Positions 2,661 through 30,914 of a stretch of DNA of 30,914 nucleotides are shown here, piece after piece. The DNA comes from a virus. The DNA lies in the IMG/VR virus record IMGVR_UViG_3300021601_000049, positions 1 through 30,914 of that record. One strand, 5' to 3'. The notes beneath the pieces are model-generated. The model searched no databases and was not told the origin of the DNA. It was given only the letters and a program-made list of their open reading frames with translations. Numbering within the stretch: position 1 is the first letter of the stretch; every line of letters begins with the position of its first letter. Both the position numbers and the translations under genes were made by a program.

Positions 2661-2675
2661 GATATATTATTAATA

Positions 2676-3155
2676 TTAAGGAGCAGATGGTGTTATGGGA
2701 CCTATGATAGGAGTAGTTCCCCCAGGTATACTAGGGCAAGCTGCTACCAGATTACAAAAAGTTGTAGAGGCTAGTGTATCTAATCCAATGATATTCAATC
2801 CATTAATCCAGAATGCTGGTGTACATAAAGCAGATAAAAACTGAGTAAGTGTAGTACCTTCTACTATACCCAAGCAAGGAATAGATGGTAATTGCACACA
2901 GTCTGTAGGTGTACTGTCCACACAAGGATTACATGGTATAGGTGCTACTTGTTTACCTCCTGCTCCTGTACATACTCCATTAGGCCAGTTAGGTGTATTA
3001 GATGCATTATCTATAGCTACTGACCATGAATAACCTGGAGGACAACACCCACAAGATACCGGTAAAGGTAATACAGTGTAGTCTGGTGGACATGAACAAG
3101 AGAGCCCTGAAGAGCATCTTGAACATAATGAGTTATTATTATTGCAGTTACACAT
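2676..3155 (-). CDS. Cysteine-rich protein with CPxG module, 159 aa
   Basis: The protein has 17 cysteines in 159 residues, nine of them in the first 38 (MCNCNNNNSL then CSRC, SCSCPP, SCGCCPPGYSW). Residues 37-62 form a CCPPGYSW...NGVC module that recurs in the 166- and 284-residue proteins nearby. Residues 85-97, DCVQLPSIPCLGI, match DCIQSQVPAVPCLSI in the 166-residue protein, so the two are probably diverged paralogues. The C-terminus is Pro/Thr/Ile-rich (TTPIIGPITPSAP). There is no signal peptide. I do not recognise a named family. The setting suggests a small virion protein whose cysteines bind metal or form disulfides in mature particles. Confidence 0.7.
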   Translation of the reverse strand: MCNCNNNNSLCSRCSSGLSCSCPPDYTVLPLPVSCGCCPPGYSWSVAIDNASNTPNWPNGVCTGAGGKQVAPIPCNPCVDSTPTDCVQLPSIPCLGIVEGTTLTQFLSALCTPAFWINGLNIIGLDTLASTTFCNLVAACPSIPGGTTPIIGPITPSAP

Positions 3156-3156
3156 A

Positions 3157-15736: not shown

Positions 15737-15758
15737 AAAATTGTTTTTGTTGGTTTGG

Positions 15759-15791
15759 TACTAAGTTACATGTTATTCTTTTACTAGACAA
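15759..15791 (-). promoter_or_regulatory. Putative Bacteroidota-type promoter for the 372-aa gene
   Basis: On the minus strand TTGTC begins at 15791 and TAACTTAGTA spans 15768-15759, 23 bases start to start. CCAAACCAACA follows, nearly the same as the bases after the copy at 18811. It lies immediately after the capsid-gene terminator. Confidence 0.65.
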
Positions 15792-15800
15792 GTTTTTTAT

Positions 15801-15833
15801 AAAAATATGGTGTAGTTATTAAGCTACACCATA
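15801..15833 (-). terminator. Rho-independent terminator after major capsid gene
   Basis: The minus-strand RNA forms a perfect 10-bp stem, UAUGGUGUAG (15833-15824) with CUACACCAUA (15815-15806), around an 8-base loop. UUUUU follows (15805-15801). It begins 27 bases after the capsid stop. Confidence 0.8.
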
Positions 15834-15859
15834 CTCTATAAAACATATTAAAATAATCA

Positions 15860-17494
15860 TTAAAGCGAACCTCCTGTGATTGGGTTTGTCGCTACTATCT
15901 TCAATAACCTACTAGGATCCAGTACTGTAAGAGCCTTGTGCTTCTGCATCATCTTAACCCTGTATCCTGAGAAGTCACCAGTAGAAGCAAACACCTTCTT
16001 ACCCATATAGTCTGCAGTGCCATTCTGGTGCAACCAAGTTAACTCATGATTGTACTTATCACGCAGAAGACGGATATTAGTGTCACTCCTATCTGTAATA
16101 TCAAATATGATATAAGAGTAAGAAGAGAGACGGAATCCATTGATAATAGGGTTCTCAATATTATTAGCCTCTACATTATCAAATGCTGGATTGATTACAA
16201 ACTTCAGGTTAGCAAGGAATGGAATAGTATAGCTAGTGTATGCATAACCAAAGTCCAGATCCAGTGCTTTACCAGAAATAGCTCCTATCTCAGATGCATT
16301 GGTTACTAAGCCACTATTAACAGCCATACTCAGGATACCTTCATTAACCTGTTTCATACCCGCCATACCTGTTTGTACAATCAGTTTACGGCCAGGATCA
16401 GGACCATCAAAGTTAATCTTACCAAGATAATAGTTGTATATCTCTCCACGGAACATATCCATAGTGAAAGTACCAATATTATAGGTCTTCTTATAACCAT
16501 TGTTAGCTTGCTGCCATAGACCGGTATTCAACCTGATCTGATCAGGACCATCATCACCTACTATACCACCTTGTCCCCACATCATATTAGTCTCAATATC
16601 TATTGATATCTTAGTAAGAGCCTTACGATCTAGTTCTGTTAAGAAGGATACATCAATAGCACCAGCTTCTATTCTTTTCATCAATTCTACCTCTCCCAGT
16701 GCTTTCTCCAGTGTCTTGAAATCTCTTACTGAAGGATCTGCACGAAGATCAGGATCATTGATCTTATATATCTCTGTTACTGGTACACCTTTAGTACGTT
16801 GACCATTCCTGATCATAGCATCAGCCATTTTAGATACTGAGTATGAAGCATTTGCCTCTGCATTACCCATGATATTGTAGAACTCACGATATCCGGCCAT
16901 AGTACTAACCTGAGACCATTTTTCACCATAGTCCTGAGATCTTGCTGATGTTATACGGAATATCTTAGTACCATTAGTAAGATAGCTATTAGACAGGTAC
17001 GATGCACTGTTGTTTTTAACAAGTTCACATGTATATACAAACTCATTATTACCCATGTCTATAATACGATCTTCTGTAACACGGAATTGCAATCCATTGT
17101 ACTTATCATATGTGAGTACATCTGTATGAGAGAAACCGCCATTATTAGGACCTTTATTAAGACATATACGGAATCTACGGCCATCAAGACCTTTCTTATA
17201 ATCTGTAGAGTCAATATCCCTGGTTACATAGGGGAGTTCATTAGCAATTGGAGATTGCCATGTCCACCTGCCCATAGGATCATCTACATCAATAACCCCA
17301 CTCTTACCAAAGTCTGATAGAGAGTAAAGAGGCATCTGTACAGCCTGTGTTTGAGCCCAAAATTCTATAGGCCCAATGTCTGTGGGCTTACTGTCTTTCA
17401 TCATGTTCCAGAGATGGTAGGAGTCCATATTAGCTCCTATGCTATACTCTGTGTCTCGGAGTAATATTCCCGAACCTATTACTGGTGTTGCCAT
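15860..17494 (-). CDS. Major capsid protein (probable)
   Basis: The assignment rests mainly on position: terminase, portal, an acidic scaffold-like protein and this gene occur in the standard order. At 544 residues it is within the range for HK97-fold capsid proteins of large phages. The sequence is evenly mixed and globular, with no membrane segment. Features include WQSPIANELPYVTRDIDS near 74-91, a helical segment VELMKRIEAGAIDVSFLTEL, and a glycine/aromatic-rich C-terminal half (SYTIPFLANLKFVINPAFDN). The strong terminator directly after it and a single-gene gap before it fit a protein made in large amounts. The HK97 fold itself is inferred. A weak promoter-like CAACATAGTA lies at 17520-17529. 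Confidence 0.8.
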   Translation of the reverse strand: MATPVIGSGILLRDTEYSIGANMDSYHLWNMMKDSKPTDIGPIEFWAQTQAVQMPLYSLSDFGKSGVIDVDDPMGRWTWQSPIANELPYVTRDIDSTDYKKGLDGRRFRICLNKGPNNGGFSHTDVLTYDKYNGLQFRVTEDRIIDMGNNEFVYTCELVKNNSASYLSNSYLTNGTKIFRITSARSQDYGEKWSQVSTMAGYREFYNIMGNAEANASYSVSKMADAMIRNGQRTKGVPVTEIYKINDPDLRADPSVRDFKTLEKALGEVELMKRIEAGAIDVSFLTELDRKALTKISIDIETNMMWGQGGIVGDDGPDQIRLNTGLWQQANNGYKKTYNIGTFTMDMFRGEIYNYYLGKINFDGPDPGRKLIVQTGMAGMKQVNEGILSMAVNSGLVTNASEIGAISGKALDLDFGYAYTSYTIPFLANLKFVINPAFDNVEANNIENPIINGFRLSSYSYIIFDITDRSDTNIRLLRDKYNHELTWLHQNGTADYMGKKVFASTGDFSGYRVKMMQKHKALTVLDPSRLLKIVATNPITGGSL

Positions 17495-17541
17495 TGCTTA
17501 TGTGATTTTAATTGTTAATTACTATGTTGACTTATGATTGT

Positions 17542-18792
17542 TTACTTACTAAATACATTTCTTGGTTTAAACTGCTTCTGTATCTTCTTTTCTGCAGGAT
17601 CTTCTACTGGTGTAACCTGTGTTCTGATATACTGAGCATCCTTAAGTTCCCTTGCTATCTCTTGTGCTTTTTCACTCTTAGCTTTAGTAGCCTGGGCATT
17701 ATTATATCCTTCCCTATCTCTTAGATGCCATGCTATCTCTGCAAGGAAATCAAAGTCAGGTTTTACATATTGAATCTCTTCCAATTTGTGTCCTATGATA
17801 TTAGTAGGTTTACCGGATATAGATGGATAGTTAGCCTCTGTAAGATCATAATATAACTCACTGGCATTCTTCTTACTCAGTTTCAGTCCACCTACTTCAT
17901 ACTTCTGAAGTACTGCTCCTACATTCTGTACATATGCCTGTGCTGCTTCCTGCCTTTGTCTATTATATTCTGCCTCTTGTTGTATCTGTAGTTGAACCTG
18001 TTGTTCATGCATAGCATCCAACTTAGGTTTAAACTCCTTTACCTTACTTTCCAATTTACCATTCTCTGCCCATTCATCTACTTGTGAGTTAATGGATTCC
18101 TGAGAACCAAAGTTTATAAGTTGTAGATAGTTTTTTGCTATCTCCGGCATATGTGCATCATTAGTAGGATCCAGTTTTTCTATCTGAGTAGCCCTGGCTA
18201 GTGATGAGAACAATGTTTCAAGGTCTGTACCTCCTTGTGCAATATAGTCAATAACATATTGTGCTTTAGGTGGAAGAGCTTCTCTTAGTTCTTGAGGAGC
18301 TTCTTCATATCCTTTATTAGCTTGTTTTTCTATATTTTTGTCTAGTAGGTCATATACATCTTTCTCTGGTAGCTTATTGAGATACTCATCCAGAGACTCC
18401 TTCTTTTCATCATAGTCATTCCATGTAAAGAAGTCACCGGATTCAATCTTAGTCTTTAGGTACTCATTGATAGCATTCTTATCAGTTCTTGGTCTACCTG
18501 GTGTACCAGGAGTTGTTTCTGTTTCTGCTTCTAGTTTATTTACAATTTTTTCTAATGTAATACCACCTTCTACTACTGGTGCAGCAGATTCTGCTTGTGG
18601 AGTAACCTTTGGTTTTTCAGCTTCTACCTTGGCTTTTATTTCCGGAATCCTCTCTAATGACCCAAAAGTTCCCTTTTTATCTACTAGTATATTACTAGGC
18701 ACCTGTTCTTCTGCCGGTGCAACAACAACATTATCTGCTGTTGGTGTAAATTCCAGATCACTGGATGCTATTGTTGATAAATCAAATGACAT
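17542..18792 (-). CDS. Probable capsid scaffolding protein, 416 aa
   Basis: Highly charged, low-complexity protein located between portal and capsid genes, where scaffolds usually lie. The N-terminal ~100 residues are disordered, rich in Glu, Pro, Val and Thr (VEAEKPKVTPQAESAAP; AETETTPGTPGRPRTD). The middle is helical, with a Gln/Glu coiled coil MHEQQVQLQIQQEAEYNRQR at about 264-283. The end is basic (EKKIQKQFKPRNVFSK), as in scaffolds that bind capsid through a basic C-terminal helix. No protease motif is seen in it or nearby. Scaffold function is inferred from place and composition. It starts 18 bases after a TAACTTAGTA element. Confidence 0.65.
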   Translation of the reverse strand: MSFDLSTIASSDLEFTPTADNVVVAPAEEQVPSNILVDKKGTFGSLERIPEIKAKVEAEKPKVTPQAESAAPVVEGGITLEKIVNKLEAETETTPGTPGRPRTDKNAINEYLKTKIESGDFFTWNDYDEKKESLDEYLNKLPEKDVYDLLDKNIEKQANKGYEEAPQELREALPPKAQYVIDYIAQGGTDLETLFSSLARATQIEKLDPTNDAHMPEIAKNYLQLINFGSQESINSQVDEWAENGKLESKVKEFKPKLDAMHEQQVQLQIQQEAEYNRQRQEAAQAYVQNVGAVLQKYEVGGLKLSKKNASELYYDLTEANYPSISGKPTNIIGHKLEEIQYVKPDFDFLAEIAWHLRDREGYNNAQATKAKSEKAQEIARELKDAQYIRTQVTPVEDPAEKKIQKQFKPRNVFSK

Positions 18793-18810
18793 AATACTGT
18801 GTTGGTTTGA

Positions 18811-18844
18811 TACTAAGTTATAACTAATTTTTCTTTTTAAAACA
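18811..18844 (-). promoter_or_regulatory. Putative promoter for the scaffold-like gene
   Basis: TAACTTAGTA spans 18820-18811 on the minus strand, followed by TCAAACCAACA, almost the sequence after the copy at 15759. The upstream -33 region is only TGTTTT at about 24 bases, so the -33 match is weaker. Confidence 0.55.
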
Positions 18845-18849
18845 TTCTA

Positions 18850-18866
18850 TACATCTGGTAGATGTA
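18850..18866 (-). terminator. Small hairpin after portal gene
   Basis: TACATCT and AGATGTA pair around a 3-base loop; TAGAATGTTTT follows on the minus strand. With the hairpin at 18890-18915 it may form a weak terminator ahead of the scaffold-gene promoter. Confidence 0.4.
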
Positions 18867-18889
18867 ATCTATATTGTAAATCCCGTATT

Positions 18890-18915
18890 CTATTAGTAAA
18901 CTATATTACTAATAG
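18890..18915 (-). terminator. Perfect 10-bp hairpin just after portal stop
   Basis: CTATTAGTAA and TTACTAATAG pair perfectly around a 6-base loop, starting 3 bases after the portal stop. No U-run follows directly, so termination efficiency is uncertain. Confidence 0.45.
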
Positions 18916-18918
18916 GGG

Positions 18919-21684
18919 TCATTTTTTACTGGCACTTTTCTCTTTTACTTTAGCCTGAATCTTTGCTGTTTGGAGTTCTTGCCTGGTGCGAGCTTGCTCA
19001 GCTTGAACCTTTTTATCCTGTATATTGATCTTCTCCTGGTCTAGTTTAGTCTTTGTAATATGTTTTTCCCTATCTAGATTCATCTTCTCCCTGAAGTTAC
19101 CTTGTGCCTCTACTCTATCTAACCCCTTCTGATAAGCTTCCTCTCCTGCATCTGGTGTAGTTGCTTGTGCTGCTCTAGATGCTGCCATTATCTCAGTCTC
19201 ATATATTCTAGCCTGTCTGTCCTTCTCATTCTCCTGTGCCTCAAACTGTTGTTTCTCCTGCAGTAGTTGAGTTTGTATCTTTATATTATCATCATGTTGT
19301 TGCTGCTCAGACTGCATTCTCTGTTGCTCTTCCTGCTCCCTTCTCTTATCAATACTCTTCATTAATTCATCCATCTCAGTTAGGTTATCTACTTTGATAG
19401 CCTTTATCTGATCCGGCATATGATCAGCTAATGTATTATTAGTCAGTAGGAACTGCTTAATCTGCTGTAGAACTGCCCTAGTATTGGTCTTTGTAGTGCA
19501 TCTTACCCCAAAATCCCTACCCATTAGTTTGGTACCATTGATCTCCATCCATGCTTTTGCATTACTATCTGTAGTATATTGGATACGTATACTAGGGTTA
19601 GTACTATTGTAGTGTTGTGCAAGGTCTGTTCTCATCTGGTGTACCCTAGGCATGAGGTAGTCACTATGCTGAGAGAAGTAGTGTTCTGTCTGTGAATGTC
19701 CTGAAGCCACTGCTTCTTTAATCTCTGTAGCTGTTCTCTCTTGTGATATAGGAGCATCTACTCTATTAGGAGATGCCAGTCCTAGTGCGGCTAATCCTTC
19801 ATTCTTAAAGTATTGAGCCCTGGATATAAGAGATACAAACCTGTTACCCTGTGTAAGGTCTATCCTTTCTATAGGTCGTTGATCTATAGCACCTTCTGTA
19901 TTCTGGATACTCCTGTTAGTTGGAAGGAATCCATTACGCATAGAGTCATATATCTTACCAAAGTTACCTGTTTGCCAATCATCCCCCATAGAGTACTTAG
20001 GGAATATATCCGGATTAAAGGCTGCAATAACACCTAGTTCATCTACTGATATATCCATGATCATATTATTAATCATGTTATACCCTATCTGCCATGGCTT
20101 CATCTTATCCACTAATGACCTGCTTTTAGCATTTCCACTAAGATCAGTATACACACAACCTTCTACTGGTAGCTTGCTGTCATATAGACTCTTATCCCCC
20201 TTAAACTGAAAGGGTAATCTTCCTGGTTTACCATTGTCATATCCTATATACATAGGTCTTAGGCCAGTAGTAGTTTGCATACCAGCCCATGATGGTATAT
20301 TAGGCCCTATCTTGATTCCACCCCACTTTTCATTAACCCATATAGGTTCCAGATGTTCTCCATATACTAGATTGTTAGCCCCTTTCTCCTTGTATAGAAC
20401 AGTATTATATTCCGGTTTGCATGTTACCTTATAGTTCTCTCCTACTATATCTTGTATCAATTCACCTGTTTCCTCATCCACTTTAGTGAGATGGTACATC
20501 TTTCTTTGAGTAGTCCAGTATATAGTAGACACACGTACTAGGTTAATATCACCATAGTCAGTAAGATCCTCACCCTCATACAGAATATCCCGGATAACAT
20601 TACTCCCCATCCCATTAGCTGTATTGTATCCTTTAGCCTCTAAGAACTGCCTCATTGCTATACCAGGACCTTCAGTGTTCCATTCCTTACTCCTTGAAGA
20701 ATCATAGAACTGTCCATCATTAGGTATACCGGTCATAGTGTATAATGATCCTCCTAGTGGATATACTCTATTCATATTGAGTATCTGCTCCTCACTCATC
20801 TGCCACCCATACATATCAATAACATCAGGCACAGTCATCTCTGTAGAGTGCACTATCCATGATGCACCTGACATGTACTTGCAGTGTGGGCTTTTCTGAT
20901 ATGCTACTAACATTGGATTCCATATCTCAATATTGTAGTCATTATCCATCATTCTAAAGTGCCAGAACTCCCTATCAGTAATAAGAGAATGCCGGAAGTT
21001 GATAACCTCTAGTTCCTGCATAGAGAATCTACTAATATCCTCCTGCATAGTGTGCCATGCCCAATCCTGATATACACTCTTAAAATCCTCATTATAGAAC
21101 TTCTGTATCTGTGGTAGACTCTTGATAGTATTAGGATCCAACATCTGCTTGCCTTCTTCACTGTCTGCAGATAACCCAAGCTCCATCATCTTAATCTGTT
21201 GCTTAATAGTAGCTTGCTGTAGAAGAACCTGTTCCATTTCTTCCTTCTTAGCTTCCATAAGCTCATTGAATGAGATAGGATCTCTAAGATCGAAGGTTAA
21301 TAAGGACACACGTTCAGCAAATTCATTACATAATATATCAACTACTTTATCAGTGAGACTATAGTACTTTAGTTCTAGTGCAGCTACTTCCTGGTATTGA
21401 ACCTTATCTGCCAGTTCAATATACTCCCTATCCATATTCTCCCGCATGTAGTCCCTCTTATCTATCTCAGCATTGGCAATCTTATAGTTGGCTATGAACT
21501 TTTGCTTATTACGAAGGATCATCCTCATGCCCTGCCACTCTAAAAAGTCAAGGTTCTGCATCCTCCATTGCTCATCCTTCTCTTTCTCTGGTAGCATTTG
21601 CAGTGGCTGGAAAAATACAGAGGTGTAGTTACTACTCTTTGTAGTAGCACCCTTCTTCATTTGTAATGCATTAATTATTCCCAT
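18919..21684 (-). CDS. Portal protein (probable), 921 aa with long C-terminal coiled coil
   Basis: Follows the terminase gene and precedes the scaffold and capsid genes, the standard place of a portal. The N-terminal half has WRMQNLDFLEWQGMRMILRN, a long helical section, and a mixed alpha/beta core with YRSNV-free but Trp-rich segments (WNPMLVAYQKSPHCKYMSGA; WGGIKIGPNIPSWAGMQTTT). A helical stem-like segment QIGYNMINNMIMDISVDELG lies near the middle. The last ~170 residues (from about 750) are a Gln/Lys/Glu-rich coiled coil (RREQEEQQRMQSEQQQHDD). The length exceeds classical portals of 500-600 residues but suits large Bacteroidota phages. The portal would form the ring for DNA passage. It may be transcribed from the element inside terL. 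Confidence 0.78.
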   Translation of the reverse strand: MGIINALQMKKGATTKSSNYTSVFFQPLQMLPEKEKDEQWRMQNLDFLEWQGMRMILRNKQKFIANYKIANAEIDKRDYMRENMDREYIELADKVQYQEVAALELKYYSLTDKVVDILCNEFAERVSLLTFDLRDPISFNELMEAKKEEMEQVLLQQATIKQQIKMMELGLSADSEEGKQMLDPNTIKSLPQIQKFYNEDFKSVYQDWAWHTMQEDISRFSMQELEVINFRHSLITDREFWHFRMMDNDYNIEIWNPMLVAYQKSPHCKYMSGASWIVHSTEMTVPDVIDMYGWQMSEEQILNMNRVYPLGGSLYTMTGIPNDGQFYDSSRSKEWNTEGPGIAMRQFLEAKGYNTANGMGSNVIRDILYEGEDLTDYGDINLVRVSTIYWTTQRKMYHLTKVDEETGELIQDIVGENYKVTCKPEYNTVLYKEKGANNLVYGEHLEPIWVNEKWGGIKIGPNIPSWAGMQTTTGLRPMYIGYDNGKPGRLPFQFKGDKSLYDSKLPVEGCVYTDLSGNAKSRSLVDKMKPWQIGYNMINNMIMDISVDELGVIAAFNPDIFPKYSMGDDWQTGNFGKIYDSMRNGFLPTNRSIQNTEGAIDQRPIERIDLTQGNRFVSLISRAQYFKNEGLAALGLASPNRVDAPISQERTATEIKEAVASGHSQTEHYFSQHSDYLMPRVHQMRTDLAQHYNSTNPSIRIQYTTDSNAKAWMEINGTKLMGRDFGVRCTTKTNTRAVLQQIKQFLLTNNTLADHMPDQIKAIKVDNLTEMDELMKSIDKRREQEEQQRMQSEQQQHDDNIKIQTQLLQEKQQFEAQENEKDRQARIYETEIMAASRAAQATTPDAGEEAYQKGLDRVEAQGNFREKMNLDREKHITKTKLDQEKINIQDKKVQAEQARTRQELQTAKIQAKVKEKSASKK

Positions 21685-21694
21685 GATGTGTGTA

Positions 21695-23932
21695 TTACCT
21701 TATGTTCTTGAATACTGATCTGCTCCTACCCCCAGTGTTTCTATTAGTAGGATTACCTATATTATGAAACATCTGTTTCCCTACTAAGTTACGGTTTATT
21801 TTTTGCTTATCTGTCAACTCACTGTCCTTTCTCTCTGTTCTTTTCCTTATACCCATTATGATCTCCTGTCTTTTAGCAAAGGCCATAAGAGCGCAATATG
21901 CTATAATCCGGTCAGCATTCTTACCTTCCTCATACTGTTGCATCTCCTTAAGGAGCCATATATCTGGTATACGTTCTACGCCATATACTATTCTGTCTAC
22001 TGTACCATCACTTTTGAATATAGGGTGTTTTTCTTCTGATAGAGAATCTATACCATACTCCAGTATCTTCTTCCATAGTTGAGGGGTATTGTACCACCCA
22101 TATGCCTGGTACATGTTATCCCTTACCTCATACTCTTTATCGAATATCATATCATCTATATGAGCAAGATACTTTTGCCTTTTCTTCAACTGCATATAGG
22201 ATATGAATCCCGGCTTATTCTTCTCACATGTTACTTTAGCATTATAGTATTCCACCAGTTTGGACATGTTCTCATTAGTTTCATTAGGGTCAGAGTACCT
22301 TCCTGTCCACCAGGCTACTATAATATCCCCTTCTACGAAACTCTGTGATTCTGTACCTGATATCCTTGTTACTTCTATTGGTCTTTTATATATGTATATA
22401 GATGCCAGTGATTCTGATGTCTTTGTATCTCCTGTTTCTACTGGGTCAATAGATCCCAGGTATGTTCCCCAAGGTGCATTAGGTACCGGCTTTTCTACTA
22501 TGACTATACAGCCTCTTTTATCCTCCATACTCTTTTCTGTAGGATATACCATTGGTTCTCGTTCACTCTTTTTTTCTACTATCTCATTAGTATCTGTTCT
22601 TTCCAGATCTACATAAGACATATTGTATTGTTTGTCCTCTATTCTTTTTACCTGCTTTACAGTGTACTTAGCCGGGAATATAGAGACTGTTCTTATAGAG
22701 AATCCCTCTTCTATATTCCTAGGGTGCTGGCTGACCTCTAGTTGATAGTCTCCGGCATCCATAGTCTTTTTCATGAGCTCAAACTTCTCATCCAATCTCT
22801 GTAGTGCTCTACTAGGAATAGAGTTTCCATATTGATCTATACAGTCATTCTCTAGTGTAGCCATTGCCCATTGTTCTGGTATAACTAATCCTGTCTCTCC
22901 TACCTTCTTATTCTTGTCTAGTAGGTTAGTAGTCACGGGAAAGAACCCATTGACTACAGGATTCATGAGGTACTTATACAGATCCTGAGCTGATGTTAGC
23001 TCACCTACTGATCCTCCTGCTATGAATAGACCGGTAGTGATCATACCATACTCCATAGCTGGTTTCATATAACCATATGTCTTTGCTAGTGTGGGTGCTA
23101 TACCCGCTTCCTCATAGTAGAATATGGATGTTCTACCACCTACACCTGCTGTAGGACTCTTATCAAAGGTGTGCCCAGTTAGTTTGCTCTTAGTACCCTT
23201 GAATAGTTTCTTACCATCTGATGTCCTAATCTCCTGTTGCTGCATCCAGTTCATTGGTTTCTCAGGGAAGTTAGGTCTATACCAGCCAGTATGTTCTAGT
23301 GTAAAATCCCTATATTCTGCCAGAAACTTCCATGTGCCAGTATCATCAATCTTATCCTTGATACTGGCACCCATCTTACCTATGAATCCTTTATCATGAA
23401 TATACCGGTTATATAATACTGCAGCATGATAGTAAGAGAATGCAAACTGCCTCTTTTTGAATATAATAGCATGTTTATAATGGAGCTCTGCCATAAGCTC
23501 ATATAGAGACATATGATACTGAGCATCTAATATATCAGGGAATGTTTGCTGATCTCCTTTTGCCTTGTTGCCTATCTTCAGGAAGTTTAGCCAATGATAA
23601 TATGCTCTGGGAAGATACCATGTATTACCCTTATCATTATGGAATATTACACCTTTTCTGCATCTCTCTTTCATTGTTCTCCAGTAAGTTCTATAGTCTT
23701 TAGAACCTCTTGGTGCATCTATATAGAATCCATGAGCATTAAACTTTCTGGACTCTGAGTTAAATATATGAGTAGCCTCATCAAACTTGTACCAATCATC
23801 ATTGTCATCTGGGCCCCAGCCTATGAATAGAGATACTATAAATAGCCGGAAGTCCTCCCTAGTAGCAAACTCTGTGTAATGCCACTGTTTAGAAGGACTC
23901 CAGGTAGGTACTGATGCAGGAAAGTCTATCAT
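21695..23932 (-). CDS. Terminase large subunit (packaging ATPase and nuclease), 745 aa
   Basis: Two-domain packaging motor. ATPase domain: a P-loop-like KKRQFAFSYY at 159-168, in the place of the usual RQxGK[ST]; a Walker B plus catalytic Glu in IFYYEEAG (270-277); and a likely coupling motif GLFIAGGSVGE at 301-311. Nuclease domain (RNase H fold): candidate acidic residues are D496 in GSIDPVE, E570, and D674 in NADRIIAYCALMAF. The N-terminal ~150 residues form an extra region rich in Trp/Tyr. The start overlaps the upstream glycosyltransferase-like gene by ATGA. The P-loop lacks the standard Gly and Lys, which is divergent, but the order of motifs and the portal gene next door support the call. 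No small terminase is seen. Confidence 0.88.
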   Translation of the reverse strand: MIDFPASVPTWSPSKQWHYTEFATREDFRLFIVSLFIGWGPDDNDDWYKFDEATHIFNSESRKFNAHGFYIDAPRGSKDYRTYWRTMKERCRKGVIFHNDKGNTWYLPRAYYHWLNFLKIGNKAKGDQQTFPDILDAQYHMSLYELMAELHYKHAIIFKKRQFAFSYYHAAVLYNRYIHDKGFIGKMGASIKDKIDDTGTWKFLAEYRDFTLEHTGWYRPNFPEKPMNWMQQQEIRTSDGKKLFKGTKSKLTGHTFDKSPTAGVGGRTSIFYYEEAGIAPTLAKTYGYMKPAMEYGMITTGLFIAGGSVGELTSAQDLYKYLMNPVVNGFFPVTTNLLDKNKKVGETGLVIPEQWAMATLENDCIDQYGNSIPSRALQRLDEKFELMKKTMDAGDYQLEVSQHPRNIEEGFSIRTVSIFPAKYTVKQVKRIEDKQYNMSYVDLERTDTNEIVEKKSEREPMVYPTEKSMEDKRGCIVIVEKPVPNAPWGTYLGSIDPVETGDTKTSESLASIYIYKRPIEVTRISGTESQSFVEGDIIVAWWTGRYSDPNETNENMSKLVEYYNAKVTCEKNKPGFISYMQLKKRQKYLAHIDDMIFDKEYEVRDNMYQAYGWYNTPQLWKKILEYGIDSLSEEKHPIFKSDGTVDRIVYGVERIPDIWLLKEMQQYEEGKNADRIIAYCALMAFAKRQEIIMGIRKRTERKDSELTDKQKINRNLVGKQMFHNIGNPTNRNTGGRSRSVFKNIR
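21782..21817 (-). promoter_or_regulatory. Promoter-like element inside terL
   Basis: TAACTTAGTA spans 21791-21782, within codons for NRNLVGK of the terminase. TTGACAG begins about 26 bases upstream. It lies about 97 bases before the portal ATG. Confidence 0.4.
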
Positions 23933-24519
23933 AATATATACCAGTTATCTAATGGGTACAGGGTATCTTCTGCCCCTATTACCTTACAACCTTCTCTGCA
24001 GTTTAGAAAGGCTCCCCACCAGGAGAAAGCATCATCTGCTATTATAAGATTATCTGCTCCTATCATTAATGTTAGTAACAACATTGGGTTAGTAAAAGGA
24101 CAAAGTTCTACCTTATCTAGTAGTATATCTCCTATACACACTGTAGTACCACCTAGATCATGCATAGCCTCTTTACAAAATTCTGGATCAGTCAATGGTG
24201 TAGTATATAATACTGTAATAGGCTCTTCAGGTAATGTTATAGCATAGGCTACAACCTTTTCAATATCATCACCAGATAATGAGAACAGTCCTTTTATCCT
24301 ATCCTGATACTCTATATAGTCAGCTAGTACAGGTTCTATATATGGTAGTTCTTCATGTGCAGGATCAGGTTCACTGAATGTTAATCCCCGGAATAGTGAA
24401 TCATTATAAGGAGTATCTCCTACAAACACCATCTCCATATCTTGTTTCCATGCCCAGATACTAGCTGATGCTATAGTAAACATGTCTTGTCCTAGATCTC
24501 CTGTTAGTCTTGCTATCAT
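23929..24519 (-). CDS. Degenerate GT11 (fucosyltransferase-like) protein, 196 aa
   Basis: The N-terminus MIARLTGDLGQDMFTIASAS matches the GT11 opening (RLxGGLGNQMFQ) but reads DLGQDMF. Near the C-terminus AFSWWGAFLN (164-173) matches the GT11 motif [ST]FSWWGAWLN. Between them ITVLYTTPLTDPEFCKEA resembles the 'FSDD..WC' region. The defining HxRRGD donor-binding motif is absent, and the protein is about 60 residues shorter than the intact GT11 in the same cassette. It is therefore either a relic kept in frame, a binding subunit, or an enzyme of changed specificity. ATGA overlaps tie it to both the upstream epimerase gene and terL. Confidence 0.7.
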   Translation of the reverse strand: MIARLTGDLGQDMFTIASASIWAWKQDMEMVFVGDTPYNDSLFRGLTFSEPDPAHEELPYIEPVLADYIEYQDRIKGLFSLSGDDIEKVVAYAITLPEEPITVLYTTPLTDPEFCKEAMHDLGGTTVCIGDILLDKVELCPFTNPMLLLTLMIGADNLIIADDAFSWWGAFLNCREGCKVIGAEDTLYPLDNWYIL

Positions 24520-25484
24520 ATATGTTGGTTATTTACTTGTTCAGATACCCATTGATAAAGGTCTTTGATACCGGTATAAAGAGGTTGTGTTGGTTCCCAT
24601 CCTAGTACACTCTGTATCAATGTGTTATCACTGTTTCTACCACGTACTCCCTGTGGCCCAGGTATATTCACTATACTCAATGTCTTTCCTGATATATCTA
24701 TGATCATTCTTGCCAAATCATTAATAGATGTAAGCTCACTGGAACCTATATTAATAGGTTGGTTATACTCACTCTCCATTAATCGTTGTACTCCTTCCAG
24801 ACACTCTGATATATGAGTGAATGATCTTGTCTGTAGACCATCTCCAAATACTTCTATACTGGTACCATCTACTGCTTGTGCAACCTTTCTACATAGTGCT
24901 GCAGGAGCTTTGGCTTTTTCACCTTCCCATTCTGTCCATGGACCAAAGATATTATGAAACCTTGCTATCCTTACCTGTATATCTGTACAGCGTTCTCCAG
25001 CCATATATAATCTTTCAGTAATAAGTTTCTGATAGCCATATTCAAGATCTGGTTGAGCAGGATAAGCATCTTCTTCTTTAAGTGCTGTAACATCAGTAAC
25101 TAGCTGCAATCTCTCAGGATAAACACATGCACTACTAGAGAAGAATATCTTCTTTACACCGGTATCAATAGCACTTTGTAATACATTATGGCATAATATA
25201 GAAGAATGTGCCAGTACTTCATAGTCATGTACTCCATTAGCCAAGTACTCCATACCACCCATTACTGCAGCCAGACAGTATACCTCATCAAACTGGAAGT
25301 TCTTGAATATATGGTATGTAGCTAATTGATTGCAGAGATCCTGTTCAATAAAGAAGTCAGCATCAGAATCATGAAACTCATTCTTCTTAATGTCTACTCC
25401 TATAACAATATGACCCTGTTCTTTAAGTCTCTTAACCAGATTACTGCCAATGAACCCACCGGCACCCATTACTCCTATCTTCAT
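24516..25484 (-). CDS. GDP-mannose 3,5-epimerase-like NAD-dependent enzyme
   Basis: Extended short-chain dehydrogenase/reductase, 322 residues, cytosolic. NAD-binding loop GAGGFIGSNL at 7-16; C120 in SSACVYPE; YxxxK at Y149/K153; RFHNIFGPW at 175-183; a lysine just before APAALCRK (193-200); and GPQGVRGRNSDN at 276-287. The same landmarks, including the catalytic Cys, Tyr and Lys, occur in plant GDP-mannose 3,5-epimerase, which makes GDP-L-galactose (and GDP-L-gulose) from GDP-mannose. Other GDP- or UDP-sugar epimerases cannot be excluded. I chose ATG 25484, not one 14 codons upstream, because the longer start overlaps the previous gene and adds residues before the Rossmann strand. It is the only sugar-nucleotide enzyme in the cassette. 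Confidence 0.85.
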   Translation of the reverse strand: MKIGVMGAGGFIGSNLVKRLKEQGHIVIGVDIKKNEFHDSDADFFIEQDLCNQLATYHIFKNFQFDEVYCLAAVMGGMEYLANGVHDYEVLAHSSILCHNVLQSAIDTGVKKIFFSSSACVYPERLQLVTDVTALKEEDAYPAQPDLEYGYQKLITERLYMAGERCTDIQVRIARFHNIFGPWTEWEGEKAKAPAALCRKVAQAVDGTSIEVFGDGLQTRSFTHISECLEGVQRLMESEYNQPINIGSSELTSINDLARMIIDISGKTLSIVNIPGPQGVRGRNSDNTLIQSVLGWEPTQPLYTGIKDLYQWVSEQVNNQHI

Positions 25485-25495
25485 TCTATAATGTA

Positions 25496-26128
25496 TTAGT
25501 ATTTTGAAAAATAACAATCCCCCCAACCATGATTACCTGACATTACCTTTTCCTGCATCTTGAATCCATATGTATGTAAATACTGTTCTATCTCCGGATA
25601 TAATGCACAGCCTGTATATAACTCATTATCATTAACCTCTATGTAAAGATACTTCACTTTATGTAATAACTCACCAAAACTTTTTAAGGCCAGTAGTTCA
25701 GCCCCTTGAATATCTATATTGACAAAGGGATAATCCTCTATATTAATCTCATTAGTGGCTAGTAGTGTATCTATTCTGGTACTTTCTACTACCCTGGCAG
25801 ATGTATAATATACCTCCGGATGAGCAATACTATGTGTACCTAATCCTAGTATAGAACTACTCTGCCCACCATTATTAGCAATGTGTAGAGTCACATCTTC
25901 TCCATCTATATCCGTAATACAGTCGTTGAACACTAGATGATTAGGATATGAGGCCAGGTTATGGATTAATGGAGATATTAATGAAGCATCAGCTTCTACC
26001 CATATAGTTCTCTCTACTCCATTACTATAATAGTCTGGAGCCTCTTGTCCAGTATTAGCCCCTATATGTAGTACTCCTGTAGGTCTAATGTTGTACTTCT
26101 GTAGTAATTGTTGGTAAGGAATTAGCAT
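25496..26128 (-). CDS. FkbM-family methyltransferase, 210 aa
   Basis: SAM-binding Rossmann fold of the FkbM type. HIGANTGQE at 21-29 is the SAM-binding motif, VEAD at 44-47 the acidic end of strand 2, and NIDIQGAELLALKS at 137-150 corresponds to the family's DxxGxE segment. YIEV at 162-165 and HGWGDCYF at 200-207 are also typical of this group. FkbM enzymes methylate hydroxyl groups of sugars or polyketides, so O-methylation of a glycan is the likely job here. It lies 9 bases after the other methyltransferase gene and 11 before the epimerase gene. Substrate unknown. Confidence 0.85.
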   Translation of the reverse strand: MLIPYQQLLQKYNIRPTGVLHIGANTGQEAPDYYSNGVERTIWVEADASLISPLIHNLASYPNHLVFNDCITDIDGEDVTLHIANNGGQSSSILGLGTHSIAHPEVYYTSARVVESTRIDTLLATNEINIEDYPFVNIDIQGAELLALKSFGELLHKVKYLYIEVNDNELYTGCALYPEIEQYLHTYGFKMQEKVMSGNHGWGDCYFSKY

Positions 26129-26137
26129 ACGTGTAGT

Positions 26138-26692
26138 TTAGTATTTGATGAAATAAGCTCCGGCATCATCTGGATGGCCTTCAGGTATTAAGTGAATTGT
26201 ATACCCCTTTTCTGTACAGAACTCAGTTACAGCTTTCTTAACTCCATATGCAGGATTTTCATAGTCATGGAAGGCCATTATACCACCCATTACTAATTTA
26301 GGAAACCATGCTTGTATGTCAGAAGATACTCCTTCGTAACTATGATCACAGTCCACATTAACAAGTCCGAGAGTTTCATCAGGAACTTCCTTAGCCATTT
26401 CTACAGATAATCCTTTTAGTATCTTGTACTTCTGTTCACGATTATCAAATACCGCCATCCTATCTACTACTTGTCTGTAGTTATCTAAATGCCAGTCAAA
26501 GGCTGACCCTCCATCCCCTAATTGTCCGGGAATATAATCCCAATTATCTACAAGGTAGAGTAACATTATTCCCCTATTCATCAAATCTGCAGCAAAGAGT
26601 CCTTCGGCAACTCCTAATTCTACAGCAGTCATAGGTAAATTTAATGACCTCATTAGTTCAGGGAGGTGACACCTATATCGTATTTCCATCAT
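26138..26692 (-). CDS. Class I SAM methyltransferase (Methyltransf_24-like), 184 aa
   Basis: Class I fold with VELGVAEG at 24-31 for SAM, VDNW at 48-51, and DCDHSYEGVSSDIQAW at 114-129 followed by GGIMAFHDY at 136-144. The 'D.DH.Y.....D...W...L..GG....HDY' signature belongs to the Methyltransf_24/macrocin-O-methyltransferase group, where the Asp and His residues commonly bind a metal. Members often O-methylate sugars in glycans or antibiotics. Its ATG overlaps the stop of the preceding GT34-like gene (ATGATG). Together with two FkbM domains it gives the cassette three methyltransferase domains. Confidence 0.82.
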   Translation of the reverse strand: MMEIRYRCHLPELMRSLNLPMTAVELGVAEGLFAADLMNRGIMLLYLVDNWDYIPGQLGDGGSAFDWHLDNYRQVVDRMAVFDNREQKYKILKGLSVEMAKEVPDETLGLVNVDCDHSYEGVSSDIQAWFPKLVMGGIMAFHDYENPAYGVKKAVTEFCTEKGYTIHLIPEGHPDDAGAYFIKY

Positions 26693-27312
26693 CGTATTAT
26701 TTCATTTGAGTAAAGTGTTATGAAATGTAATTTATCTTCTTCAGTACTTCCTGGAACATGCATAATAAAATCCCCTTTCTCAAAGTGTACATGCTTTACA
26801 AGAAACTGCTTATTGTTAACATACTTTATATGAGACTCACTTGAACTCTCTATATCAATAAGATTATGCATACAATTATTGTCATTCAGTATATGATTAG
26901 TATTGATATTTTCTCTTATCCAATATTCATGATTGGCATCTCCTATATCCCACCACTTTCTAAGAAAATCTCTAGTCCACTCACTATTTCTAAAAAGTAT
27001 ACAACCTGTCTGCATGACATCTTCTTTCGTTACTATGATATCGTAATTTTCATCAATCACATCAGTTAGTGAAATAGTCATATTAGTAACTATTGTATCA
27101 GCATCTGTCCACATTAACCAGTCCGTGGCTCCTATATACTTCATCACAAGATACTGTTTTATCCAATATGGAAATCTATTTATCTCTGGAATATTTCCAA
27201 AATGTTTTATAAACTTATACCCATATCTACTACAGTACTCTTCATAATTTTTACTAACTGTTTCTTCATATACGCAAACCCCTTTATATCCTGTCAATAC
27301 TGTAATGTTCAT
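26689..27312 (-). CDS. GT34-like (GMA12/MNN10) glycosyltransferase, 207 aa
   Basis: Single-domain GT-A fold enzyme. WTDADT at 68-73 holds the DxD metal/nucleotide-sugar motif. QTGCILFRNSEWTRDFLRKW at 101-120 matches the GT34 'N.G.f.ir.s.w...fl..w' segment, and FIMHVPG at 182-188 resembles its 'H..G' acceptor-side motif. GT34 enzymes are mostly alpha-galactosyl or xylosyl transferases of eukaryotes, with bacterial relatives. No membrane anchor. I start at ATG 27312, which overlaps the upstream stop as ATGA, not at one six codons earlier inside the preceding gene. Sugar specificity cannot be read from sequence. Confidence 0.78.
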   Translation of the reverse strand: MNITVLTGYKGVCVYEETVSKNYEEYCSRYGYKFIKHFGNIPEINRFPYWIKQYLVMKYIGATDWLMWTDADTIVTNMTISLTDVIDENYDIIVTKEDVMQTGCILFRNSEWTRDFLRKWWDIGDANHEYWIRENINTNHILNDNNCMHNLIDIESSSESHIKYVNNKQFLVKHVHFEKGDFIMHVPGSTEEDKLHFITLYSNEIIR

Positions 27313-28718
27313 AGAGTATCTTTGAACCAATGAGGACCAAGTGTTTGGAACCCATCGAAGTTAGTAATACCTGTTCCTATATTGCTCTGATTATTGTATT
27401 GCCTGCAACATCCTGGATTGAATGCATATGTATGCAAATTGGGCTGCAAGAGTATCATAAGCCAATCAATACCCATAGATCTATACACATTCTGATCTAA
27501 CAAATCCAGTATGTGTTTTATCCGTTTCTTGTTGACTATATAACTATAAGTACTCCATGCTCCATATGTTCTAACTATCTGTGGATCATCAGTAGGTTCC
27601 CAATCTCTGTTAAGTTCACACTTACACATCTGCAGATCAGGATGAGTATGCTGACCATTAACTGAATGATGCCATGTAGGTTCCTTATGATACGTGCCTC
27701 CTAACCAGAAGATGTCCCACTCATGAGTATCGAGAAACTCACCTATATGAACTAATCGTTCCTGCAAATCACTACAGTAGATTAAATCATCTTCTTGTAC
27801 CCATGCATGTTTACCAAGTCTAAGAGCCTCCTCCATAGTTGCAACCTGGCTGTAATGACAGCCTATAGCACCAGGTGTACGATTCTGCATAGCCCACAAC
27901 TTATCTGCAGGTTGATTAACCTGTTCAGGAAGAAGACCAATTCTCCTGATAGCTTTTATTCCTACTCTATCAAGTTCCTTGATCATTTTGTCATTCCGAT
28001 CACTTCTTGATGGTAAGTTGATGTACTCTACATATACATCTCTCTCCCAGTTAATTGGCTGATTATCCATCAATCTGTTATCTCCCGGCCAGAAATCCTT
28101 CTTGAAGTATATCATACCCCATCTCTCCATCCTGGAAGGATTAATGTCAGCAAAAAATTTCTCAGGATCCCAATCAGCCCAAAGTAGTACATCATTCACT
28201 AACGGTATATCTCCATCTGTAGATACAAATTTAGTATATCCCAATGACTGTAAATAAGTAATAGCATCAGATATCCATATGTCTTCTTCAGCCCACTCGA
28301 AAGAAATGATGGTATCAGGTAAACACTGAGTAAGACCTTTGAGGACCTCATACTCGTACCCCTCTACATCTATCTTGATAAAATCCGGAATACCGTAATC
28401 AATAATAGCCTGATCAATAGTAGTTGTCATAACCTCTATGGGTATCTCCCAACAGTTACCTTGTGAGAACCTGCCTGAGTTCTTCCACTCCTGAGAGAAG
28501 GTGGATAGAGTGGCTGCATCAGAGATCATGAACTGTTTAGTCCCAATCTCTGATGACAGAGCCCTCCTATCTACTATCACATTGGTTCCCGAAAAGCGTT
28601 TATGCAAATTAGGTAACAAGTTAGGGTTAGGCTCAAATGCTACTACAGTATCTGCCCAGTTAGTAAAGTCACCGGTGTAGTCTCCGGCATTTGCACCTAT
28701 GTCAAAGATTAATTTCAT
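27309..28718 (-). CDS. FkbM methyltransferase fused to GT25 glycosyltransferase, 469 aa
   Basis: Two enzymes in one chain. N-terminal FkbM-type methyltransferase, about 1-185: DIGANAGDYT at 6-15, FEPNP at 28-32, and KIDVEGYEYEVLKG at 115-128. C-terminal GT25-type (LPS glycosyltransferase) domain, about 228-469: INLPSRSDRN at 233-242, GCHYSQVATMEEA at 286-298, WVQEDDL at 306-312 (the 'LEDD' region), then YGAWSTYSYIVNKK. GT25 enzymes add galactose and related sugars to LPS or proteins. The fusion suggests that transfer and O-methylation happen in sequence on one substrate. Its ATG shares a base with the upstream stop (TAATG). No frameshift is visible between the domains. Confidence 0.85.
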   Translation of the reverse strand: MKLIFDIGANAGDYTGDFTNWADTVVAFEPNPNLLPNLHKRFSGTNVIVDRRALSSEIGTKQFMISDAATLSTFSQEWKNSGRFSQGNCWEIPIEVMTTTIDQAIIDYGIPDFIKIDVEGYEYEVLKGLTQCLPDTIISFEWAEEDIWISDAITYLQSLGYTKFVSTDGDIPLVNDVLLWADWDPEKFFADINPSRMERWGMIYFKKDFWPGDNRLMDNQPINWERDVYVEYINLPSRSDRNDKMIKELDRVGIKAIRRIGLLPEQVNQPADKLWAMQNRTPGAIGCHYSQVATMEEALRLGKHAWVQEDDLIYCSDLQERLVHIGEFLDTHEWDIFWLGGTYHKEPTWHHSVNGQHTHPDLQMCKCELNRDWEPTDDPQIVRTYGAWSTYSYIVNKKRIKHILDLLDQNVYRSMGIDWLMILLQPNLHTYAFNPGCCRQYNNQSNIGTGITNFDGFQTLGPHWFKDTL

Positions 28719-29488
28719 TATTCGAATTCTAGTTGGATGAAAGTGTTAGGAATCATATCTGCATTTGCTCCACCAAAGATATAACGAGATGGTGGAATAA
28801 TTACCTGTTTATCAGAATTTCTGTTGAGCCATGCTGCTATAAATGAGAATGATGAGTAGCATACAATGTTGTGAACACATGAAGACATCATCCATAGATC
28901 GGTATACTCACTCTGTCCTTCCTGGAACATCAGATTAGCTGAAGGGGATATCAGGTTATTTTTGCACCACTCAATATCATCAGAGAATACTAAGAAATCA
29001 TTATATCCCATTCTTTGAAAATGCTCAATAGCATTGTAGTAATAAGCCAAAGGAAGTGGTGGATGCTTATCAGTTAGTTGCAGGAAGTCACCTCTTCTGA
29101 TATGAATAGATACCATTGTAGTTGGTATATATGGTATCTGAAACTTCTCTAGTATGTAATTTCTGCACCAATCAAAGTACTTGAATGACTGCCAGTATCC
29201 TACAAACTTCACATTATCCATAGCTGGTATATCCTGGTAGCCAGGTGTATTATAATGATAAGTTCCATCAGGTTTTGGTACTGCATGTACAGCCTGTTCA
29301 TGATACTCCTGCAGTCCTTGTAGTTCTGGGCCCATTGCAAGTTGAGGAAAGTACATCTTCCGGCCATCACAATGATATGCTGTATCAGGTATATAATACT
29401 GTAGGTTGTGTTTTTTACAATAAGCTAGTAACATAGCTATCTGGTAAAATTGGTTACCTAACCTCCCTTGTAATGTTGTTGTGATCAT
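28718..29488 (-). CDS. GT11 alpha-1,2-fucosyltransferase-like enzyme
   Basis: Carries the full GT11 motif set in order: GRLGNQFYQIA at 8-18, GYWQSFKYF at 97-105, HIRRGDF at 129-135 (the GDP-sugar-binding HxRRG motif), FSDDIEWCKNNL at 168-179, and SSFSFIAAWLN at 212-222. At 256 residues it is near the usual 270-300. GT11 enzymes move L-fucose from GDP-L-fucose to galactose, cytosolic side. With a GDP-mannose 3,5-epimerase in the cassette, GDP-L-galactose is a possible alternative donor, since it differs from GDP-L-fucose only at C6. ATGA overlap with the preceding GT2 gene. Confidence 0.9.
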   Translation of the reverse strand: MITTTLQGRLGNQFYQIAMLLAYCKKHNLQYYIPDTAYHCDGRKMYFPQLAMGPELQGLQEYHEQAVHAVPKPDGTYHYNTPGYQDIPAMDNVKFVGYWQSFKYFDWCRNYILEKFQIPYIPTTMVSIHIRRGDFLQLTDKHPPLPLAYYYNAIEHFQRMGYNDFLVFSDDIEWCKNNLISPSANLMFQEGQSEYTDLWMMSSCVHNIVCYSSFSFIAAWLNRNSDKQVIIPPSRYIFGGANADMIPNTFIQLEFE

Positions 29489-30189
29489 AAGCTGTATAGT
29501 CTTTGTAGTACCTCTTGATGGAAGTTTCCTGTCTTGTGGTTATTAATAGTGTAATGTGATGGGTGACCTACTCTGTGTTCATATTCTAGTCCTGGTACAA
29601 AAAAGTACTTGTTATCCTGTACTAGTAGTCTATATGCCATATAGATAGAATCTGATGTATGTGGGTCAATACAAGGGTCAAAAGCATTCAAGTAGGTCTG
29701 CTTGTTAATAAAAAAGTTCATTGCGTTAAATGCCACTTGCAATTTCTCCCCATATATAAAGTCCTTGAGATTGCTCCTGGAAATAACTGCTCCGGATATG
29801 TGCCTAAAGTCAAAATGCGGTTTAGCAAATACTGGTTGATATACAGTATCATTATTCCATAATGGTATAGAGTATAATACATTAATGTAGTTCACATCAA
29901 TAATATTATCAGAATCCAGTAGTATACACCAGTCATTAGATGCGTATGATATAGCTATCTGTTTGTTTCTGTAGCAATCCATGTTCTCCACATTCTCGTA
30001 TATTATAATCTTGTTGTTACCAGAAAAATAGTTACGTAGTTGCTCTACTGACCCATCAGTACTGCAGTCATCTACTATAACTACCTGGCTAACCCTATCA
30101 TCATCCAGTACCTGCGCAAATGATTCTATAGTCATCTGATATCGGTTATATGTTGGTATGCATATTGATATCTTCCTGGTATCTTCCAT
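29485..30189 (-). CDS. GT2-family glycosyltransferase, 234 aa
   Basis: GT-A fold with the classic GT2 motifs: SICIPTYNR at 8-16, VVIVDDCSTDGS at 36-47 (nucleotide-binding Asp pair), and the metal-binding LDSDN at 91-95. The C-terminal half (HFDFRHISGAVISRSNLKDF and a further acidic DSIYMAYRLL segment) is the likely acceptor side. A single domain without membrane anchor, so it probably acts on a soluble or cytosolic acceptor. Substrate not predictable. It begins one base after the stop of the GT7-like gene and overlaps the GT11 gene. Confidence 0.88.
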   Translation of the reverse strand: MEDTRKISICIPTYNRYQMTIESFAQVLDDDRVSQVVIVDDCSTDGSVEQLRNYFSGNNKIIIYENVENMDCYRNKQIAISYASNDWCILLDSDNIIDVNYINVLYSIPLWNNDTVYQPVFAKPHFDFRHISGAVISRSNLKDFIYGEKLQVAFNAMNFFINKQTYLNAFDPCIDPHTSDSIYMAYRLLVQDNKYFFVPGLEYEHRVGHPSHYTINNHKTGNFHQEVLQRLYSL

Positions 30190-30190
30190 A

Positions 30191-30823
30191 TTAGATTGCT
30201 GTATTAACTCTTAGATGTATACACTCTTTTGTCTCTTGTCTACTGAACACCTTGTACCTGGCTGTTGATAATCCTTCACTGTAATCTCTTCCTGCTCCCA
30301 GTACCTGTAGGTTATGTTGGTACTGTTGTGGATCTTTTGGTCTAGGATGTTCAAAACATTCAAACCTTCCCATTCTAATACCTGGTACTATTCCTCTGCC
30401 TATGAATGACCTATACTGTAGATCATCCTCTCCACCATAACCAGTAAACTGATTACTGTGCCCATTAGTTAGTTCATAGTGCTCTTTACTCATTACTACT
30501 ACTCCACCAAAGAACTGAGGATAGCATAGTATATAATGAAACTGTGAAGCCTCTCCTGCTATCATAGTAGGTACTGGTGCCAGTGAATAGTCTACCTTAC
30601 CTAGTACAGGAATGAAATCAATATCATGCTGAATAATATAATCATAGTCATTAGCCAGTTCCTTATACCCGGCATTGAATAGCAGCCCTTTATTCCATGG
30701 TAGTGTATCCATCTGTTCAATGACTGCTATTCTCATATCAGAAAAGTGCTTGTTCATATAAAGCAAGAAGCATGATAAATGAGTAGGTCTTCCTCTGTAT
30801 GTTGCTATTATTAATGGTTTCAT
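30191..30823 (-). CDS. GT7 (beta-1,4-galactosyltransferase-like) enzyme, 210 aa
   Basis: The signature segments of GT7 are visible: NKGLLFNAGYKEL at 44-56 (as in FNRGKLLNxGF), the metal site QHDIDFIP at 65-72 (DxD), and FFGGVVVMSKEHYELTNGH at 104-122 followed by GYGGEDDL at 128-135, matching the animal WGWGGEDDD motif. GT7 enzymes transfer galactose or N-acetylgalactosamine from UDP-sugars. It lacks the membrane anchor of the animal enzymes and is a minimal catalytic domain. I start at ATG 30823: it has GGAG six to nine bases upstream, unusual in this window, and overlaps the upstream stop as ATGA; a TTG six codons earlier is less likely. Confidence 0.88.
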   Translation of the reverse strand: MKPLIIATYRGRPTHLSCFLLYMNKHFSDMRIAVIEQMDTLPWNKGLLFNAGYKELANDYDYIIQHDIDFIPVLGKVDYSLAPVPTMIAGEASQFHYILCYPQFFGGVVVMSKEHYELTNGHSNQFTGYGGEDDLQYRSFIGRGIVPGIRMGRFECFEHPRPKDPQQYQHNLQVLGAGRDYSEGLSTARYKVFSRQETKECIHLRVNTAI

Positions 30824-30914
30824 GCATTCTCCTTTTTCCAATTATTATAACGCTGTTTATGTTCTGATATCTTTATATCCGCATGTTCAATATAATATTG
30901 TTCTTCTTCTGAAA
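30820..30914 (-). CDS. C-terminal end of an upstream gene, truncated by window
   Basis: The last 30 codons of a frame entering from the window edge, ending in TGA at 30820-30822 that overlaps the ATG of the GT7-like gene. The peptide SEEEQYYIEHADIKISEH then KQRYNNWKKENA is charged and helical. Too little remains for a family; another cassette enzyme is likely from the coupling. Confidence 0.6.
   Translation of the reverse strand, partial: SEEEQYYIEHADIKISEHKQRYNNWKKENA

Follow-up and report, generated by a model that had tools for sequence, protein, structure and literature searches.

Glycosylation of phage virions is documented for only a few mycobacteriophages in the papers that we found. 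In Corndog (cluster O), an O-methyltransferase (gp35), two glycosyltransferases (gp36 and gp37) and a GlcNAc-transferase (gp38) are encoded between the portal and protease genes, and the authors of that work propose that these enzymes modify the capsid (PMC4351075); capsid glycosylation of Che8 and Rita is cited in a passage of PMC11256854. Related enzymes occur in cyanophages. Synechococcus phage S-SRM01 (MW015081) encodes FkbM, GT11, GT2, GT11 and GT25 proteins consecutively (GT, glycosyltransferase family), together with NDP-sugar synthesis, and S-8S55, S-SM2 and S-SCSM1, in the part of PMC9602691 that covers them, carry a GDP-mannose 3,5-epimerase (GME) with GT11, to which S-SM2 adds GT25. 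In gut phages of the Gratiaviridae, a glycosyltransferase lies in the late module, in the region of the portal and major capsid protein (MCP) genes. Here we describe a cassette of nine genes for sugar synthesis, transfer and methylation that runs directly into terL. It lies in a viral contig of 30,914 bp (the whole of IMG/VR record IMGVR_UViG_3300021601_000049, hereafter the window), and is truncated by the end of that record.

As in Che8 and Corndog, the glycosyltransferase genes of the window lie in or near the virion operon, and as in Corndog they are accompanied there by O-methyltransferase genes; the glycan itself is putative. Corndog belongs to another lineage and has a smaller set, for which the available account names no GME, GT11, GT25 or FkbM. 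The Gratiaviridae enzyme differs in standing alone with a HipA kinase. The cyanophage islands share enzyme families with the window (the GMEs of S-8S55, S-SM2 and S-SCSM1 are 44–49% identical, and GT11 adjoins GME in S-8S55) but not its gene context. S-SRM01, with an FkbM of ~30% identity and GDP-fucose enzymes without an annotated GME in the stretch, has its set beside photosynthesis genes rather than virion genes, and the genes of S-8S55 and S-SM2 lie in nrd, tRNA and metabolic regions with no link to terL, whereas the cassette overlaps terL. An earlier note on this DNA knew of no phage with this combination. That claim needs narrowing, given the similar sets of S-SRM01, S-8S55 and S-SM2 and the virion-operon precedent of Corndog, although the cyanophage sets do lie away from virion genes.

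The main genes of the window are all on the minus strand. The cassette comprises nine consecutive open reading frames (ORFs) at 23929–30841, whose products contain six glycosyltransferase and three methyltransferase domains and include one GME, and it is followed by terL and the portal gene:

30191..30841, minus strand: GT7, beta-1,4-galactosyltransferase-like (Pfam N and C parts, 6.8e-14)
29485..30189, minus strand: GT2 glycosyltransferase (Pfam PF00535, 7e-21)
28718..29488, minus strand: GT11, alpha-1,2-fucosyltransferase family (Pfam 2e-23; PHROG 2644, 1e-37)
27309..28718, minus strand: FkbM methyltransferase (aa 1–~200) fused to GT25 (aa ~228–469) (Pfam FkbM 3e-19, GT25 3.6e-5)
26689..27330, minus strand: GT34-like glycosyltransferase (Pfam 1e-11; DAD motif)
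26138..26692, minus strand: Methyltransf_24 (MT24)/TylF-type O-methyltransferase (Pfam 2.5e-13)
25496..26128, minus strand: stand-alone FkbM O-methyltransferase (Pfam 1.5e-13)
24516..25526, minus strand: GME, for GDP-L-galactose synthesis (Pfam epimerase 3.6e-36)
23929..24519, minus strand: degenerate GT11-like protein (Pfam 0.0028, under the cut-off; HxRRGD motif lost)
21695..23932, minus strand: terL, crAss type (PHROG 6681, 3e-59; ~27% identity to Crassvirales)
18919..21684, minus strand: portal (PHROG 6547, 9e-59; probably co-transcribed, judging by spacing)

Six of the nine junctions from the cassette to terL are overlaps (five 4-nt ATGA and one 1-nt TAATG); at the other three the genes lie 1, 9 and 11 nt apart, and nowhere between GT7 and the portal gene is the spacing wider than 11 nt. 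The final cassette gene shares 4 nt with terL (ATGA, 23929–23932), the portal gene follows terL after 10 nt, and the next gap measures 126 nt. From 15000 to 30914 the coding strand showed no terminator-like site. Because the junctions are tight and such sites were not found, a single transcript from the cassette through terL and portal is likely, and the operon arrangement suggests expression timed with the packaging genes. ORF calls, Pfam and phmmer thus bear out the earlier note in its description of the gene row and its domains, its overlaps recur in our count, and the gene families and operon support its idea of a sugar cassette coupled to terL. Upstream, the limit at 30914 is only the record end, 73 bases beyond the GT7 ORF, and relatives hold extra glycosyltransferase-like genes upstream of GT7. 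Shine–Dalgarno sequences are absent from start regions in the window, as is usual in Bacteroidota. A scan for sigma-70-like promoters gave fewer sites than shuffled sequence and was set aside, and a check for phase variation found no tandem repeats of note within the cassette. For GT7 (30823), GT34 (27312) and GME (25484), ATG is the probable start in place of TTG.

Conserved motifs are intact in eight of the nine cassette genes, the exception being the degenerate GT11, whose AlphaFold model (pLDDT 56) was not good enough to search for similar folds. GT7 retains HDIDFIP, FFGGV and GYGGEDD and matches beta4GalT7/beta4GalT1 in the PDB (E 1.5e-24), and GT11 retains HIRRGD. The Pfam score of GT25 is barely above the cut-off; its profile has procollagen galactosyltransferases as its sole PDB relatives. 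Judged by its sequence, the epimerase is a true GME: phmmer gives E 7e-88 to 8sg0/2c59 as against 1e-23 for the second-best family, and the protein contains SSSACVY, YGYQK, KAPAALCRK and GVRGRNS, in agreement with the catalytic patterns SSSAC(x)Y, YxxxK and KAPAAxCRK. Membrane-like segments are absent from all of the cassette proteins (highest KD19 1.45).

TerL, portal and MCP of the window match crAss-type PHROGs 6681, 6547 and 11589 with ~27% identity to named Crassvirales, so that the virus appears to be a distant relative of that order. Scans with TerL yielded about 85 relatives, which define a fixed position for the cassette. A small gene, X, is seen in the relatives, the window ending before it. 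In cassette-free relatives with upstream DNA, X lies directly before terL or within ~1.1 kb of it, and in the crassvirus cr130_1 and Flavobacterium phage FpV4, which share the TerL type and the X–terL neighbours, hidden Markov model matches place it immediately before terL with no cassette in between. In the window's clade, by contrast, the X–terL interval spans 1.3 to 12.4 kb and is occupied by glycan genes. The product of X (L005:17094–17633; L012:1162–1713) has ~180 aa, is conserved beside terL across crAss-like phages and FpV4, and matches no Pfam family above the cut-off. Just upstream of X in L012 (63–1160), with counterparts in L010, L013 and L029, is a gene for 350–370 aa that looks GT-B-like by eye and has no Pfam match.

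Three relatives (L012, L019 and L101) share the order of the window, GT7–GT2–GT11–GT25–(MT24)–FkbM–GME, with orthologs of GT2 at 48–63% and of the stand-alone FkbM at 57–69% identity in all three, and of MT24 at 50–54% in L012/L019. L001 and L015 have rearranged sets that add a UDP-sugar dehydrogenase and an NAD synthase, and L010, L013, L029, L087 and L095 hold different glycosyltransferases in the same slot. The window, L001, L019, L029 and L095 have the cassette in direct contact with terL, and in L012 and L101 the two are separated by a small ORF or PhoH-like gene. Matches to FkbM and GT11 in 18 records map to the X–terL locus, with none in eight outgroup records of up to 124 kb, and GT2 matches fall there likewise, apart from some between X and GT7. 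A single clade for the cassette carriers (plus five contigs ending at terL) was not rejected (p-AU 0.586). Chance grouping is excluded, since most cassette genes recur at 45–70% identity, with the order mostly kept, in independent contigs. The cassette is therefore real and its position among relatives non-random; one of the outcomes that the earlier note had named as fatal, homologues sitting elsewhere in relatives without a link to virion genes, is the opposite of what the relatives show. L011 and L012, two separate metagenome records, contain identical stretches of 22,124 bases.

Within this slot the genes are modular. The GT25 domain is 55–71% identical across the window's clade while its N-terminal partners differ: FkbM in the window, GT2 in L015, and DUF5672 in each of L012, L019 and L101. 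To relatives with another partner, the GT25 half of the window's protein is 58–71% identical. L015 also encodes a 677-aa fusion that by homology unites MT24-, GT11- and FkbM-like parts, and the degenerate GT11-like protein weakly resembles L001:48–662. The GME genes in the slot before terL fall into separate subgroups, the window with L001 versus L012/L019/L101 (support 100/98). One GME seems to have been swapped for another with its activity retained, and this replacement in the same slot suggests that the GME product is needed. Homing-endonuclease-like ORFs (GIY-YIG or HNH, by eye) lie within the glycan cassettes at L012:7662–8441, L019:2096–2860 and L019:8351–8905, and may aid movement of the genes. 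Further fusions and additions include a 1,124-aa protein (L001:4661–8035) joining a sugar epimerase, a cupin-like middle (by eye), a C-methyltransferase and FkbM, and the UDP-sugar dehydrogenase followed by NAD synthase (L001:2028–4006, L015:349–2379), the latter perhaps supplying NAD for sugar oxidation.

Scans with GME, GT25 and FkbM, in which at least four core families had to occur together and duplicates were merged manually, recovered a GT2/GT11/GT25/FkbM/MT24/GME-like set in 23 additional viral contigs. A head or packaging gene (portal, head protease or terL) lies in the same stretch in 19 of them, spread over several phage types, which extends to other phages the linkage to virion genes found beside terL. 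The portal of PHROG 11226 or its partner protease accompanies the cassette in L210–L213, L215, L218, L224, L227, L234, L240 and L252, portal PHROG 146 or protease PHROG 760 in L209, L221 and L222, and portal PHROG 7376 in L136 and, weakly, L225; a divergent crAss-type TerL (PHROG 6681) is near a related cassette in L214 (12781–14805), L219 (12282–14321) and L279 (near 2255–4294). L211 has a homolog of the GT34-like gene. The window-type GT7 occurs at close identity only in the crAss clade, with distant matches of 31–32% in L225 and L226, and the best match to GT25 in 50,697 annotated phage records is 24% identical, which leaves no close relative there. A scan of GTDB genomes by short peptide patterns for a bacterial source of GT7 gave one 35% local match only. 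The virion-region protein at 12998–13885 of the window shares a 90-aa stretch, 41% identical, with a 980-aa protein from another phage that carries a cassette (L252:15982–18924).

On this evidence we propose, at roughly even chances, that the locus is a modular cassette, mobile and expressed late, whose enzymes attach an O-methylated glycan, probably with L-galactose among its sugars, most likely to virion proteins. GME would convert host GDP-mannose to GDP-L-galactose and/or GDP-L-gulose, and the soluble glycosyltransferases GT7, GT2, GT11, GT25 and GT34, with others encoded upstream in relatives, would assemble an oligosaccharide. From what is known of these families, GT11 would be the likely user of the GDP-L-sugar, with O-methylation of the glycan by the TylF-type enzyme and both FkbM domains; the order of transfer suggested here has the same basis. 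As the cassette, terL and portal genes appear to be transcribed together, the glycan would be made during particle assembly and most likely attached to head, portal or appendage proteins, where it would shield the particle or tune adsorption. A virion protein is favoured as acceptor because GT7 and the GT25 profile resemble animal enzymes whose substrates are proteins or glycans linked to proteins, because of the location, and because membrane segments, GtrA and the thymidylate-synthase family were not found. GtrA had no match above the cut-off in 11 relative records of uncertain completeness, and the thymidylate-synthase family (PF00303), expected for hydroxymethyl-base synthesis, had none in the same, possibly incomplete, records. 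The cassette thus appears to differ from GtrABC serotype conversion and from T-even DNA glucosylation, and these absences weigh against both conversion of a lipid-linked O-antigen and DNA glucosylation of the T4 type. The wider proposal, that several unrelated uncultured phage lineages independently inserted such a mobile cassette into their head and packaging genes and coat their virions with an O-methylated, L-galactose-containing glycan, is tentative and falls a little short of an even chance.

Several observations weigh against the proposal. No head gene was identified near the cassette in four of the 23 additional contigs (L198, L235, L241 and L156), and in L136 and L225 the cassette is on the strand opposite the adjoining head genes, so that co-transcription is not universal. 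The figure of 19 of 23 is moreover a plain count and no test of enrichment. The MCP has no obvious mucin-like acceptor stretch, and cyanophages keep similar enzyme sets away from virion genes. GME and GT11 are adjacent at only 2 of 80 GME loci (in the same stretch at 17), which makes the link from L-galactose to GT11 weak; their pairing was dropped as a general rule.

A host glycan is a possible acceptor and a serious rival to a virion protein. The enzymes might extend or methylate host capsule or lipopolysaccharide late in infection and so block re-adsorption of progeny or superinfection, an explanation that we consider unlikely but substantial. It is the usual interpretation of cyanophage sugar genes in the part of PMC9602691 that discusses them, and the corresponding passage of PMC8008677 reads the Gratiaviridae enzyme as modifying the host wall; infection by crAss001 is affected by capsule phase variation, as PMC8375218 reports, and a GtrB-like gene lies just upstream of X in cr130_1. 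The lack of membrane segments in the cassette and of GtrA matches above the cut-off in relatives tells against host-surface remodelling, as does the fact that no annotated cassette gene encodes a lipid-carrier initiator. Host-surface remodelling would not predict the recurrence near head genes, yet is compatible with it. Decoration of a tail spike or fibre only, for receptor specificity and without a general coat, is improbable. Several downstream genes are Ser/Thr-rich (23–29%), among them that for a 932-aa virion protein (9097–11895; PHROG 6002) with 29% Ser+Thr, reaching 43% over 60 residues, which is a candidate glycan acceptor. However, two cassette-free relatives have such proteins too, for which reason we dropped them as evidence on the acceptor, and no specific link joins the cassette to a fibre gene.

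Still less probable is DNA hypermodification, by which the glycosyltransferases would act on a modified phage base, protecting against restriction in step with packaging. The position beside terL would suit it, but the thymidylate synthase/dCMP hydroxymethylase family was not found in the 11 relatives, and we know of no DNA glycosyltransferases among GT7, GT11 and GT25 and of no sugar O-methylation in DNA hypermodification. Virus glycosyltransferases that hypermodify DNA have nevertheless been reported (Pyle 2024, as cited in a passage of PMC12619734). That the genes are passengers moved between phages and functionless at this locus, as the high turnover and shuffling and the one degenerate glycosyltransferase might suggest, is scarcely credible given intact motifs in eight of nine genes, orthologs at 45–70% identity and a GME swapped for another GME.

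Virion glycosylation by a phage-encoded cassette is thus a kind of system already known, whereas the enzyme combination described here, the fixed X–terL slot and the recurrence near head genes appear new within the searchable literature and data. Our literature search found no paper on such a cassette in crAss-like phages, and a review of the Crassvirales mentions no glycosyltransferases, its sole match to 'glycosyl' being a glycosyl-hydrolase. If the proposal is true, a conserved enzyme set recurring in the assembly modules of unrelated phages would represent a general strategy by which phages disguise or tune their particles, widespread but so far unrecognised, and crAss-like phages would have their first example of it. 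It would add new enzymes, including an animal-like GT7, relatives of collagen-type GT25 and a viral GME, and would offer targets for testing the role of the coat in adsorption, in stability and in recognition by antibodies or grazers.

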